DNA of 64,000 nt from Acidobacteriota bacterium (GTDB lineage Bacteria > Acidobacteriota > Terriglobia > Terriglobales > SCQP01): contig SCQP01000001.1 of the NCBI GenBank assembly GCA_004299485.1, positions 124,001 through 188,000 on the forward strand, given 5' to 3'. The notes under the pieces are model-generated. The model was given only the letters and a program-made list of their open reading frames with translations, ran no database searches and was not told the DNA's origin. Numbering within the stretch: the first letter of the stretch is position 1; each line of letters opens with the position of its first letter. Positions 12,092 through 17,465 of this stretch are shown one piece after another. The position numbers were made by a program, and so were the translations under genes.

Positions 12092-12167
12092 GGATGCCCC
12101 CTTCTTTTATTGACGCGGGTGCGCTTGACAGCGCAGGAGCCAAAGTGAAATTCAGGGAAGGAGCAAG

Positions 12168-12515
12168 CTAAGCGAGCGGAATGTGGAAGATGGAGGGGGC
12201 AAAGCCGAAGAGATCGGCAGCGCCGAGGACGAACTGGAAACCGCGAGCGGAATGAATCGATGCGAGCCGCTGGACGGCGGTGGGCGGGTAGAGCGGAACC
12301 GAAGGCGCGGCCATCAACAAGGGTGCGGGGGCAACCGTGTGGCAGGATGCCTGCATATGGCAGTTGGCCATGTCCGGCATGGACGCTGCCTGGGACATGG
12401 GGCAGGCGTGCATCCACCAGCAGCAAATGGGGCGGCCGGCAATGCTATTGGCAAGGCTGAACACAGGCGCCAGCGCTAGCACTACCAGGGCCGCGATTTG
12501 AAGGGACCGCCTCAC
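12168..12515 (-). CDS. Small exported Met/His/Cys-rich protein, possible metal binder
   Basis: The 115-aa product begins with a signal-like segment (MRRSLQIAALVVLALAPVFS). It continues with a cluster of potential metal ligands, ICCWWMHACPMSQ then MPDMANCHMQASCH (about residues 30-60), followed by a Pro/Ala-rich region. No named family was recognised. It precedes the TonB receptor by 77 bp in the same direction and probably shares its transcript. A copper or heavy-metal sensing, scavenging or delivery role is inferred from composition and neighbour. Confidence 0.55.
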   Translation of the reverse strand: MRRSLQIAALVVLALAPVFSLANSIAGRPICCWWMHACPMSQAASMPDMANCHMQASCHTVAPAPLLMAAPSVPLYPPTAVQRLASIHSARGFQFVLGAADLFGFAPSIFHIPLA

Positions 12516-12634
12516 CCTTCAGTATGAGCGCGGGAGGACCGCAAAGGTTACGAAAACCAGCTACACTGGGAGTAACAAACGTGCGCTGCGCCACGGAATT
12601 CGTGTGCGTGGCGCTTCGCGTATACGAGGCATTC

Positions 12635-13111
12635 ATGAAAACCGAATCATTCCTGCGGGTAGCACGAAGCGGAGGCAGGGCGCGCGTGGACGCAGGGCAA
12701 TCGTTTCAACCGGGCGAAGTCCTGCTGGTCCTCCAGGGCAAGGTAGCGGAGCAACCCGACCGCTATTCGGTCCAGATCGGGGTGGACAAGCACTTAATGC
12801 CCGACGGCGAGGGCTGCGTCTGGATGTTCCTGAATCACTCCTGTGAGCCCAATGCAGCGGTAATGGGACGGAAACTGGTGGCCATCCGGGCGATTACCAG
12901 CGGCGAAGAGGTCACGTTCAACTACAACTGCAACGAATATGCGATGGATTCGCCCTTCCGCTGCCGCTGTGGGCATTGCGGGGGCGTACAGGTTCGCGGC
13001 TACCGGTATTTGAGCGCGGCCGAGCGCGTGAAGCTGGCGCCGTACGTGGCCGCGCACGTGCGCCGGGAGCAGCCCGAAGCGACCGGGGCCACTCTGGCTA
13101 CCCATGCCTGA
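12635..13111 (+). CDS. SET-domain protein, putative protein-lysine methyltransferase
   Basis: The ATG at 12635 gives a 158-aa SET protein. Motifs are FLNHSCEPNA (residues 66-74, SAM and substrate site), AITSGEEVTFNYN (residues 86-98, catalytic region) and a post-SET cysteine cluster CRCGHCGG (Cys110, 112, 115). SET enzymes transfer methyl from SAM to lysine side chains. The stop codon lies 8 bp inside the next gene (overlap ATGCCTGA), so the two are translationally coupled. This suggests that the methyltransferase acts on the NRPS, its lysine-like product or a partner protein, which is inference. Confidence 0.85.
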   Translation: MKTESFLRVARSGGRARVDAGQSFQPGEVLLVLQGKVAEQPDRYSVQIGVDKHLMPDGEGCVWMFLNHSCEPNAAVMGRKLVAIRAITSGEEVTFNYNCNEYAMDSPFRCRCGHCGGVQVRGYRYLSAAERVKLAPYVAAHVRREQPEATGATLATHA

Positions 13112-16100
13112 TCAGGAGCCACGACTCCTTCACGACATTTTTAACCGCATTGCGGACCAGCATGGGGACCGAATCGCGGTGGAGACGCCTCCCGAGGAAG
13201 CCGGAGGCAATCGGGTTTCGGTTACCTATCGCGAGTTGCGCGAGCAGGCGACCGCACTGGCAGCGCGGATTGCGGACTGCGCGGGCGCCGATGAGATAGT
13301 CGCGGTGCTGCTGGCGCGCAACGATCCATGCCTGTACGCGGCACAACTGGGCGTTTTGCAAGCGGGTGCGGCGTTTACCTGCCTCGATCCGGCGTTTCCG
13401 GACGCCCATATTGCCGCAGTGGCTGGGAACGCGGCGGCGATTATTACGGACGCCGGCGGACGGGAGCGGCTGGCGCGGCTGAGCACGAGTCTGCCGCCCA
13501 TCGTGGCGGTCGAGGGCGAAGGCGGCCCTGCGGTGATACGGCCTCGGAAGGAAGCCAGCGAGCGCAACCTTGCCTATGTGATCTACACCTCGGGGACGAC
13601 GGGCAAGCCGAAAGGGGTGATGGTGGAGCACCGGTCGATTGTGAACCTGGTGCTGGCCGACCTCGATTATTTCAACTTGCAGCCGGGCACGCGGGTGGCG
13701 CAGTGCTCGTCGCCCGCGTATGACTCCTCGATCGAGGAGACCTGGCTGGCGCTGGCGGCGGGTGCGACGCTGGTTCTGCTGGACGATACGACCATCCGGC
13801 TGGGGCCGGATTTGCCGGCGTGGCTGCGGCGCGAACGGATCAACGTGCTTTGCCCCCCGCCGACGCTGCTGCGGGCCATGGGCTGCCAGCGTCCGGACAA
13901 GGAATTGCCAGAACTGGAACTGCTGTACGTCGGCGGCGAGGCGCTACCGCAGGACATCGCTGACCGCTGGGCGCGCGGACGCTGGATGGAAAACGGCTAC
14001 GGGCCGACCGAATGCACGGTGACGTCGGTGCGGGCCCAGGTGCGGCCGGGCGAAGAGGTTGTTATCGGGCGGCCGGTAGCGAACTGCACGGCAGTTGTGC
14101 TGAACGAAGCCGGAGAGGAGGCGCCGGAGGGCGAGGCGGGCGAGTTGTGCCTGGGCGGCGCGTGCCTGGCGCGTGGCTACCGCGATCTGCCCGAACTTAC
14201 GGCGGAGAAATTCATTGAGCACGTGCAATTCGGGCGGATTTATCGCACCGGCGACCGTGCACGCCGGCGGGCAGACGGCATGCTGGAATGCCTGGGGCGG
14301 ATCGATGCGCAGACAAAGCTCCGCGGCTACCGGATCGAGCTGGAAGCCATTGAAGCCGTGCTGGGGCGCTGCGCCGGCGTGCGCGCCGCAGCCTGCAAAA
14401 TACAGGGCAACACGATTGCGGCGTTCCTTGTGCCGGAAAAAGCCGGCGTGCCGCCGGCAGCCCAGGCGCTGCGGCAGGCGGTCGCGGCGGAATTACCGGC
14501 GTATATGGTTCCGGGGCGGTTCGCATTTCTGAGTGCACTACCGACGACGGCTGGGGGCAAGCTGGACCGCGCGCAACTGCCGGATGCGGAGATCGCGGCG
14601 GGCGGGTCCAAACAGACGGTGCAACCGGGGAATGCGCGGGAGCGAGCGGCGGCGGAGGCGTTTGCGGCGGCACTGCAGCAGCCCGAAGGCGTAGGCCTCG
14701 ACGAGGACTTTTTTCTCGACCTGGGCGGGGATTCGCTCACCGCAGTAGATTGCATTGTGCGGCTGCGCACAGACGGCTGGAAGGCTACGGTGCGGGATCT
14801 TTACGCGGCGCGGAGCGTAGCCGCACTGGCGCGACGGATGACAGCGGCCGAGCCCGGAGATACGGTTGAGCCGGCGGTTTCGGGGGAAGCGCCTGCGCCG
14901 GGCGCGACGGTCGGGCCGGTGCTGTGCACACTCATGCAGGCGGTTTGGATTCTGGCAGAACTGGTGGTGGTCAGCGCCTTGGGCTACTGGGCCATGTTCA
15001 CCGCGCTGCCGTGGTTGTTCGAGCGCTGGCCGTTGTGGGAAGGCTTACTGCTGGCGGGCGTGGCGAGCGCCGCCGGCGCGCTGCTGTATGTGCCGCTGAG
15101 TGTGTGGGCGACGGCAGGGGTGAAGAAACTGCTGATCGGCGCGTACCGGCCCTTGCGTACGCCAATGTGGAGCGGGTATTACCTGCGGCACTGGATGGTG
15201 ACGCAGGCGGCGCGCAATATTCCCTGGGGCATGTTGCAGGGCACGAGCGTGCAGGCGTGGGCGTTGCGGCGGCTGGGTGCGCGCGTGGGGCAGAGGGTCT
15301 ATATTCATCGCGGCGTGACCTTAGCGCGTGGCGGCTGGGATTTGTTGAGCATCGGAAATGGCGCGACGCTGTGTCAGGGAGCCGAGCTGGGGCTGGCTGA
15401 TCTGGAGGCGGGTGAGCTGGAGATCGGCAGCATCACGATCGGCGCGGATGCCACGCTGGAGACGCGCGCGGGCATGGACCCGGGGACGAGCGTGGGCGAT
15501 GGCGCATCGCTGGGACCGCTGAGCTGGCTGCCGGCCGGAAGCGGCGTGCCGGCAGGGGAGCGCTGGGAAGGGACGCCGGCGGGGCGGGTGGGGAGAACGG
15601 GGGAAGCCCCGGAGGTTACAGGTGGGGAGTTGCCGCCGTTTGCACATGCCGTGCTGGTAATGGCCGGCCGCACCGCAAGGGTGCTGGCCAGCGCATTACC
15701 GCTGGTGATCGTCGCGGCGCTGCTGCCGGCGGCAGACGCCACGCGGCTGACGGACTGGATTTATGCGCCGCGCTTCGATGCGCCGTGGATTGCGGCAGCG
15801 GTAGGCATCGCAGCCGTGGCGCTGGTGCTAACGCTAGCGGCGCGCGCGCTGGCGGCACGGTGGCTGGGACGGCTGCCGCGTGGTCCGGTGAGCCTCTGGA
15901 GTTGGAGTGCGATCCGGCTGCATGCGACCGGACGGCTGCTCGAAGAGTCAGGACGATGGCTGGCGGGGACTCTCTTCTGGCCGCTGTGGCTGCGAGCGGC
16001 GGGGATGGGCGTGGGGCGGCGCTGCGAGATCAGCTCCATCCTCGATGTCGTGCCCGCAGCCGTGACGGTAGGCGATGCGTGCTTTTTCGCCGATGGCATT

Positions 16101-17060
16101 TATCTGGCGGGTCCGCGGCGGCATCGCGGCACGCTGACGATTCCGCGAACCTATCTGAGGGCGCGAACCTTCATCGGCAACCACGCCGTGATTCCTGCCG
16201 GTTACGAGTGGCCGGAGGCGATGTTTATCGGCGTGGCGACGGTGCCGGATGCGGCGCAGGTACGGCCGGACACAGCCTGGTTCGGGCAGCCGCCGATGGA
16301 GCTGCCGCGGCGCCCAGCGGTCGTCGACCCGCGATTCAGCGTCGCGCCCGGGCCGCTGCGTTTTGCCACGCGCGTGTTCTGGGAGGTGGCGCGGTTCGGG
16401 CTGCCGGCGCTGCCGCTGCTGCTGGCCGCGGGATGGGTTGCGGCCCTGGACAGCGTGAGTGGCGGGGCATGGCTGCTGGCATGTGGAATTTCGCCGGCAC
16501 TGTCGGTGGCGATGGCGCTCGCGGCGATGGCGGCCGTGTGCGCGGCGAAGTGGGGATTGCTGGGGCGCGTGAAACCGGGCACGCGGCAGTTCTGGTCGTG
16601 TTGGTGCGGCCGCTGGGACATTCTTTACATGGCTTGGGAGTATTGGGGCCAGCCAGTGCTGGCGCCGCTCGAAGGAACGCTGCTGCTAAACCAGTTCCTG
16701 CGGCGGATGGGCATGCGGATCGGACGGCGGGTGGCGCTCGGACCGGGCTTTGCGCAGGTCGTGGATCCCGACATGTTGCATTTTGAGGACGGCGCGACCG
16801 TGAACGGCAATATGCAGTCGCATACGTTCGAGGACCGGCTGCTCAAGATGGACACCGTCCGGGTGGGGCGCCGCGCGACCGTGGGCGACGGCGCGGTGGT
16901 GCTCTATGGCGCGAGCATCGGCACGGGGGCGCGGGTGCAGCCCCACGCGGTCATGATGAAGTACGACGAAGTGCCTCCGGCCGCGGTCTTCGGCGGCGCT
17001 CCGGCGCGGCCGATGGAAGCCAAGGTTACTCTCGAGGCCATGTCGGGCATCTCATCCTAG
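13104..17060 (+). CDS. Pls/PosA-type nonribosomal peptide synthetase (homopolyamino-acid synthetase-like)
   Basis: The 1318-aa protein has an adenylation domain (residues 1 to about 490; VIYTSGTTGKPKG about 159-171, ENGYGPTECTV, GGKLDR near 484) and a carrier domain with phosphopantetheine site LGGDSL (Ser544). Membrane segments alternate with three hexapeptide-rich (LbH-like) blocks from about 610 to the end, including NGNMQSHTFEDRLLKMD near 1234. There is no condensation or thioesterase domain. This is the layout of epsilon-poly-L-lysine synthetase (Pls) and its relatives, where the terminal domains join monomers iteratively. By eye alignment to GrsA the pocket reads D-S-E-C-L-V-G-V-T-K; the acidic third position also occurs in Lys and Orn codes, so a cationic monomer is plausible. 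It is coupled to a SET protein upstream and abuts a DUF6496 gene. Confidence 0.9.
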   Translation: MPDQEPRLLHDIFNRIADQHGDRIAVETPPEEAGGNRVSVTYRELREQATALAARIADCAGADEIVAVLLARNDPCLYAAQLGVLQAGAAFTCLDPAFPDAHIAAVAGNAAAIITDAGGRERLARLSTSLPPIVAVEGEGGPAVIRPRKEASERNLAYVIYTSGTTGKPKGVMVEHRSIVNLVLADLDYFNLQPGTRVAQCSSPAYDSSIEETWLALAAGATLVLLDDTTIRLGPDLPAWLRRERINVLCPPPTLLRAMGCQRPDKELPELELLYVGGEALPQDIADRWARGRWMENGYGPTECTVTSVRAQVRPGEEVVIGRPVANCTAVVLNEAGEEAPEGEAGELCLGGACLARGYRDLPELTAEKFIEHVQFGRIYRTGDRARRRADGMLECLGRIDAQTKLRGYRIELEAIEAVLGRCAGVRAAACKIQGNTIAAFLVPEKAGVPPAAQALRQAVAAELPAYMVPGRFAFLSALPTTAGGKLDRAQLPDAEIAAGGSKQTVQPGNARERAAAEAFAAALQQPEGVGLDEDFFLDLGGDSLTAVDCIVRLRTDGWKATVRDLYAARSVAALARRMTAAEPGDTVEPAVSGEAPAPGATVGPVLCTLMQAVWILAELVVVSALGYWAMFTALPWLFERWPLWEGLLLAGVASAAGALLYVPLSVWATAGVKKLLIGAYRPLRTPMWSGYYLRHWMVTQAARNIPWGMLQGTSVQAWALRRLGARVGQRVYIHRGVTLARGGWDLLSIGNGATLCQGAELGLADLEAGELEIGSITIGADATLETRAGMDPGTSVGDGASLGPLSWLPAGSGVPAGERWEGTPAGRVGRTGEAPEVTGGELPPFAHAVLVMAGRTARVLASALPLVIVAALLPAADATRLTDWIYAPRFDAPWIAAAVGIAAVALVLTLAARALAARWLGRLPRGPVSLWSWSAIRLHATGRLLEESGRWLAGTLFWPLWLRAAGMGVGRRCEISSILDVVPAAVTVGDACFFADGIYLAGPRRHRGTLTIPRTYLRARTFIGNHAVIPAGYEWPEAMFIGVATVPDAAQVRPDTAWFGQPPMELPRRPAVVDPRFSVAPGPLRFATRVFWEVARFGLPALPLLLAAGWVAALDSVSGGAWLLACGISPALSVAMALAAMAAVCAAKWGLLGRVKPGTRQFWSCWCGRWDILYMAWEYWGQPVLAPLEGTLLLNQFLRRMGMRIGRRVALGPGFAQVVDPDMLHFEDGATVNGNMQSHTFEDRLLKMDTVRVGRRATVGDGAVVLYGASIGTGARVQPHAVMMKYDEVPPAAVFGGAPARPMEAKVTLEAMSGISS

Positions 17061-17465
17061 ATGCCAAACAAAACCACCGTTCGCAAAGCTAAGCAGAACC
17101 TGCGCGCGGGTAAAAAGCCCTCGACCGCGGCGGGCGAGTTCGTGCATCAGGAAATCGAGCACGTGCGCCACGGCCAGCACGGTGCGCGCTCGCCCCAGCA
17201 GGCCATCGCCATTGGACTGAACGAAGCGCGCCGCGCCGGCATTCCGCTGAAACCGCCGAAACGCGGCAAAACGTCGGACAAAACGCGCCAGAGCGCCGAG
17301 CGCGCCTACAAGGAAGGCCAGAGCCAGCCCGGTAAGAAGGCGTCGCTCAAGCGATCGCGGGCGCGCGAGCGTGCGCTGCAACGCGAGCCCAAAAACACGG
17401 CCTCGCACAAGGCCCTCTCGAAGCAGGCGCGCTCGGCCGCACTTCGGCGCAAAAAGGCTGCCTGA
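17061..17465 (+). CDS. Small basic DUF6496-like protein
   Basis: The ATG follows the NRPS stop with no gap. The 134-aa product is extremely Lys/Arg-rich and contains STAAGEFVHQEIEHVRHG, QHGARSPQQAIAIGLNEARR and repeated KKA/KRSRAR tracts; this matches my recollection of DUF6496, a small family of unknown function. The composition resembles nucleic-acid-binding proteins. Adjacency to the SET and NRPS genes makes it a conceivable lysine-methylation substrate, but such genes also occur alone. Confidence 0.65.
   Translation: MPNKTTVRKAKQNLRAGKKPSTAAGEFVHQEIEHVRHGQHGARSPQQAIAIGLNEARRAGIPLKPPKRGKTSDKTRQSAERAYKEGQSQPGKKASLKRSRARERALQREPKNTASHKALSKQARSAALRRKKAA

Follow-up and report, generated by a model that had tools for sequence, protein, structure and literature searches.

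We found that a gene for a SET-domain methyltransferase overlaps the start of a gene for a Pls/PosA-type (CHPA) synthetase in the 64,000-nucleotide stretch of acidobacterial DNA analyzed here (the window) and that the same two genes are neighbors in six bacterial phyla. Because they are conserved neighbors across these phyla and co-occur perfectly in one actinobacterial family, SET and Pls are supported as a functional unit. We consider it fairly probable that the genes form a two-gene, translationally coupled cassette for a methylated cationic polyamide, in which SET would act on the building block. Few monomers are known for the antimicrobial cationic polymers that Pls-type synthetases produce. 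Within the open-access literature, we found neither SET-Pls pairs nor methylated polyamino acids, and no Pls that we found there is described with a SET partner gene; as far as that literature reaches, a SET partner of Pls is previously undescribed. The pair suggests that methylated charged polymers may be made by a route not yet described.

The first-pass annotation of this DNA had reported an 8-bp overlap between the SET and Pls genes, and this overlap was confirmed (Table 1). The same overlap occurs in a second locus (L090), and 4-nt ATGA or GTGA overlaps were found at the SET-Pls junctions of many other pairs.

Table 1. Features of the SET-Pls locus, in window coordinates.
Feature	Coordinates	Strand	Remarks
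SET-domain methyltransferase gene	12635..13111	+	158 aa; Pfam SET 33.2 bits, cut-off 22.4
SET stop/Pls start overlap, 8 nt (translational coupling)	13104..13111	+	Pls ATG 13104, SET TGA 13109-13111
Pls/PosA-type (CHPA) NRPS-like synthetase gene	13104..17060	+	1318 aa; AMP-binding, PP-binding, Hexapep, and TIGR02353 matches
Adenylation domain, ~residues 14-493	13143..14583	+	Pfam AMP-binding 14-359, AMP-binding_C 416-486
Thiolation (carrier) domain, residues 518-578, GGDS phosphopantetheine site	14655..14837	+	Pfam PP-binding
C-terminal membrane domain, three repeats of TM-helix pair plus left-handed beta-helix (acyltransferase-like)	14901..17060	+	TIGR02353 616-1301
Very basic DUF6496-like ORF, 134 aa	17061..17465	+	Starts directly after Pls stop; pI 11.8, 26% K+R

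The very basic gene that had been noted with zero gap to the Pls gene was also there. Its DUF6496 assignment is borderline, as its Pfam score is 23.5 bits, just below the gathering cut-off of 24.0. In the neighborhoods of the clade loci, we found no DUF6496-like homologue beside any other Pls, and this lack of conservation ruled the gene out as a third component. The earlier proposal that the lysine-rich gene is part of the locus was thus given up, and the gene is probably incidental and outside the system.

We found that the synthetase has an adenylation (A) domain and a thiolation (T) domain followed by the TIGR02353 terminal domain, in line with the A-T and membrane-embedded terminal domains that the first-pass annotation had given for Pls. 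Searches with Pfam and NCBIfam profiles revealed no condensation or thioesterase domain in the protein. Hydropathy marked three hydrophobic segments (residues 600 to 671, 850 to 922, and 1095 to 1154). The C-terminal 707 residues, modeled with AF2 (pLDDT 80.4), show a transmembrane helix pair followed by a left-handed beta-helix, three times over, and both profile and fold searches matched these repeats to hexapeptide acyltransferases. The predicted three helix pairs and three soluble acyltransferase-like domains agree with the published architecture of Pls, in which three acetyltransferase-like domains in tandem accompany six transmembrane helices (PMC8117764). The window Pls thus shares with the Pls/PosA family the A-T module without condensation or thioesterase domain, the three membrane units, and an E239-type cationic pocket. 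It differs from that family in falling into a separate clade. TIGR02353 (NCBIfam) covers the whole terminal domain, but at 361.2 bits it scores under the curated cut-off of 423.1. Judged by sequence, the window Pls is a member of a divergent clade rather than a typical TIGR02353 protein. Its dN/dS against the nearest relative is ~0.25.

Aligned to the standard ten positions, the A-domain code of the window Pls is DSECYGGVTK, with D235 and E239 of a cationic-type pocket, and not the Lys-type (DAESIGTVIK) or Orn-type (DMEHNGTVSK) code. Within Acidobacteriota, the DSECYGGVTK synthetases (45 to 53% identity) form a clade apart from the Lys-type and Orn-type enzymes. An A domain with exactly this code (Bdello_A) was cloned from the CHPA homologue OFZ39577.1 of a Bdellovibrionales bacterium; assayed as an isolated domain, it used L-Arg best of the substrates tested, though modestly, and none of four diamino acids, and the authors suggested a larger analogue as its true substrate (PMC10522769). 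From the code and this substrate profile together, lysine or ornithine is an unlikely monomer for the window Pls. Only part of the earlier claim of a cationic, lysyl-type product therefore stood: the pocket is of cationic type, whereas the lysine or ornithine monomer fits neither the code nor the use of L-Arg by Bdello_A (PMC10522769). A Bacteriovoracaceae relative (L138) has no SET gene upstream.

The code is the same in all readable SET-linked Pls proteins (34/34). It varies in 9 of the 47 Pls proteins that are not SET-linked, compared with 0/34 (Fisher p 0.009), and the variants are partly clustered on the tree. A SET-less subclade from Planctomycetota has drifted codes (DSESHGDVVK, DSASHGDVVK, DSECHGDVVK, DSEGYGGVTK, and DVESYGGVTK in L105, L142, L168, L117, and L164), and these possibly specify a different monomer.

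The product of the upstream gene carries the NHSC and FNYN motifs, the latter with the catalytic-type Tyr97, and a post-SET CxCxxC cysteine cluster. With its Pfam score, its SAM-binding and catalytic motifs, and its fold (AF2 model, pLDDT 90.6), it is a SET-domain methyltransferase, and it is the only Pfam SET match in the window's genome. An alignment of 32 pair-member SET proteins showed that Phe95, Tyr97, and four zinc cysteines are invariant, as are the family-specific residues Q47, H53, W63, and E101. The dN/dS of SET against its nearest relative is ~0.18. A scan of viral contigs found no relative of SET.

By both sequence and structure, the closest relatives of SET are BurB-like enzymes. 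BurB and MSMT are SET-domain methionine S-methyltransferases of dimethylsulfoniopropionate (DMSP) synthesis, and BurB acts on free methionine, which it holds mainly by main-chain contacts (PMC12542666). BurB was the top PDB match of the 32-member profile (68 bits, E 6.5e-18), ahead of Set2 (55.7 bits) and the other histone enzymes. It also ranked first by fold for the AF2 model in Foldseek, and VIA-align put it ahead with a Z of 14.5 against 12.1. The two enzymes have in common a compact SET fold, the Q and H of an RYSVQxG...H segment, a TE after the catalytic Tyr, and the post-SET cysteines. They differ in that identity is ~24%, the segment before the HSC motif is shorter in BurB, and the genomic partner is Pls for the pair SET and DMSP genes for BurB. 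Histone H3K36 and H3K4 methyltransferases (Set2, ASH1L, and MLL) share with SET the core domain, the NHSC motif, an F/Y-x-Y motif, and the post-SET zinc cysteines. Against the pair SET, however, they score at least 12 bits below BurB with a VIA Z at least 2 lower, and SET lacks extra histone-specific domains of their kind. These profile and model comparisons are best explained if SET, a compact SAM-dependent methyltransferase, belongs with small-molecule enzymes such as BurB rather than with histone enzymes.

In the profile alignment, the Q, H, and E of the pair SET proteins are also found in BurB, but F95 is not. The F-x-Y signature (F95 and Y97) is the one usual in lysine methyltransferases. 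Because F95 is Met in BurB and fits lysine-type SET proteins, the substrate is not readable from homology, and the likeness to BurB does not fix it.

Another genome (G010; L019 8044-11240 and L020 8169-8678) encodes a sister SET protein that is joined to a CxxCxxCC domain, and the genes after it encode two homocysteine S-methyltransferases (PF02574). This genome is without the Pls clade and has a second SET copy elsewhere. Homocysteine S-methyltransferases can use S-methylmethionine, and the neighborhood of the sister SET suggests S-methylmethionine metabolism.

The first-pass annotation had let its reading hang on a cationic A domain and on SET and Pls being neighbors in other genomes. The predicted pocket is cationic, as noted, and we found the genes adjacent elsewhere, so that neither condition refutes that reading. 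Overlapping pairs are present in two genomes of the same genus, with 76% (SET) and 72% (Pls) identity in one (G299) and 49% and 54% in the other (G298); more distant Acidobacteriota with the same code have no SET neighbor. Confinement of the pair to the genus (the phylum sample had given, beyond it, only distant members without SET) was overturned by a wider scan. We used an alignment restricted to the Pls C terminus to scan the GTDB genome collection, obtained 80 loci, and sought SET genes at these loci with a SET profile. In 35/80 loci, the gene immediately preceding Pls, in the same orientation, is SET, and one further pair (L162/L172) is split by a contig end, for a total of 36. The remaining 44 comprise 37 loci with upstream sequence and no SET and 7 that are unjudgeable or have a truncated Pls. 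SET-bearing loci span Acidobacteriota, Planctomycetota, Verrucomicrobiota, Actinomycetota, Armatimonadota, and Pseudomonadota, some of which are represented by only two metagenome bins each. Actinomycetota account for 12 of the SET-bearing loci, some from named strains of Lentzea, Kutzneria, Amycolatopsis, Planosporangium, and Actinocrispum.

We also searched from the SET side in the family of Lentzea terrae (249 genomes), with thresholds of E ≤ 1e-30 for SET and >970 bits for the close Pls clade. The 15 genomes with SET, from several genera, were the same 15 that have the close Pls clade, although kinship among the 249 genomes inflates the formal probability of this 15/15 co-occurrence. In all 15, SET and the Pls C terminus are on one contig and the same strand, at the spacing expected of adjacent genes (~1.8 to 1.9 kb). 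A further ~155 genomes of the family have only remote Pls proteins (≤365 bits) and no SET at E ≤ 1e-30. In Planctomycetota, the Pls clade is present in 5/6 SET genomes and in 9/203 genomes overall (Fisher p 3e-7). The pair's SET was the only strong copy of its family in 27/27 pair genomes tested. Distance matrices of SET and Pls were correlated (Mantel r 0.79, or 0.67 without near copies; p 2e-4).

Mapping the presence of SET on the Pls tree required 16 changes, at least 12 of them forced by well-supported branches. This pattern is consistent with an ancient pairing that was repeatedly lost or transferred. Among the 43 genomes without a neighboring SET, 27 had no SET match at E 1e-5, and their A-domain pocket is mostly the same. 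Since SET-less genomes keep this pocket, the clade does not strictly require SET, and its monomer may be independent of that enzyme. Two Holophagaceae genomes (L170 and L171) have a strong SET between recG and coaD, apart from Pls, and both carry the Pls clade.

We considered other genes as components of the system. A replacement partner in SET-less loci was rejected, as the upstream genes are mutually unrelated. Amino-acid permeases occur at 12 loci, but they are different permeases in different places and on different strands. Within the window's genus, two genomes (L087, 241-1659; L089, 1535-2944) have a PLP-dependent decarboxylase (PF00282, diaminobutyrate-decarboxylase-like) tail to tail with Pls; this gene is absent beside the window's Pls. 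It was also set aside as a component; close homologues are found nowhere beyond these two loci, with one distant match in a Lys-type locus (L056). In one locus (L048), a clade Pls without SET is followed, at a distance of ~1 kb, by an EgtB-like gene (judged by eye; 12147-13511) on the opposite strand.

The first-pass annotation had proposed methylation of the product or of a partner, and methylation of the polymer or its monomer is plausible; its further suggestion of self-protection gained no support. One order of events is that SET methylates a free amino acid, giving S-methylmethionine from Met as BurB does or an N-methylated lysine, and that the A domain selects the methylated onium, so that Pls polymerizes a permanently charged monomer. 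We regard this order as possible but doubtful. It is consistent with the closest fold and profile match being an enzyme of free Met (PMC12542666) and with Bdello_A, which rejects four diamino acids and takes Arg modestly, so that a larger cationic analogue may be the substrate (PMC10522769). E239 and the aromatic Y299 could hold an onium or guanidinium group, the pocket is constant in SET-linked Pls proteins and varies only among the others, and the G010 sister SET adjoins homocysteine S-methyltransferases. However, SET-less genomes with the same pocket would lack the monomer unless it is imported or otherwise made, and S-methylmethionine and trimethyllysine offer no side-chain amine of the kind that known family members use in isopeptide chemistry. 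It seems rather unlikely that the full extent of this idea holds, namely, that SET makes S-methylmethionine or N-methylated lysine, a methylated onium compound, and that the Pls clade selects this amino acid and polymerizes it into permanently charged sulfonium or ammonium homopolyamides in at least six phyla. Alternatively, the A domain may take Arg or another cationic amino acid in unmethylated form, with SET methylating it on the carrier or on the finished polymer as an optional decoration. The patchiness of SET on a Pls tree with a nearly constant pocket speaks for such late methylation, as do SET-less Pls genes that stand alone without a replacement partner. Yet BurB, the nearest solved relative, works on a free amino acid, we know of no SET enzyme that methylates arginine, and an obligate pair, as seen in the actinobacterial family, is unusual for an optional decoration. 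We can give late methylation only tentative credence.

SET enzymes are mostly protein lysine methyltransferases, and the F-x-Y signature is of that kind. SET could accordingly be a protein lysine methyltransferase with a regulatory or protective function, its target being Pls itself or a basic protein (the DUF6496-like product, for instance). Translational coupling would make sense if SET modified the protein encoded next to it, and histone enzymes are the next best PDB matches. A protein substrate is nevertheless unlikely, given that the best sequence and fold match is a small-molecule enzyme, that the DUF6496-like gene is unconserved beside other pairs, and that SET-less Pls proteins exist. 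That the genes are chance neighbors with no functional relation is extremely improbable: many genomes do have Pls without SET, but recurrence in six phyla, 15/15 co-occurrence with adjacency, correlated divergence, and repeated gene overlap refute it.

In the reading that we prefer, a coupled SET-Pls cassette for a methylated cationic polyamide, the substrate that the A domain adenylates would be a large cationic amino acid, either similar to Arg or an onium analogue, and the T domain would carry it. The membrane-embedded C-terminal domain would join the residues into an oligo- or polyamide. Most likely, SET would methylate the building block, whether free or tethered to the carrier or the polymer, and a methylated cationic chain (homopolymer or oligomer) would result. 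By analogy with known CHPAs, the role of this product is probably antimicrobial or surface active.

A conserved, coupled SET gene that is absent where only other Pls types occur is a direct clue to the substrate or to a modification of the product. This bears on the DSECYGGVTK clade, whose true substrate was left open by the one study that assayed such an A domain (PMC10522769). The pair also points to a likely small-molecule role for bacterial SET proteins, which are usually read as protein lysine methylases. If the onium reading is true, the products would be a new class of homopolyamides, and SET would have a biosynthetic role in nonribosomal peptide assembly. Culturable actinobacteria (Lentzea, Kutzneria, and Amycolatopsis) carry the pair.

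Other Pls proteins of Acidobacteriota (L054-L061) have the Lys-type code DAESIGTVIK, the Orn-type code DMEHNGTVSK, and a further code, DGESVSAVNK. Judging from these codes, cationic homopolymers may be common in Acidobacteriota.
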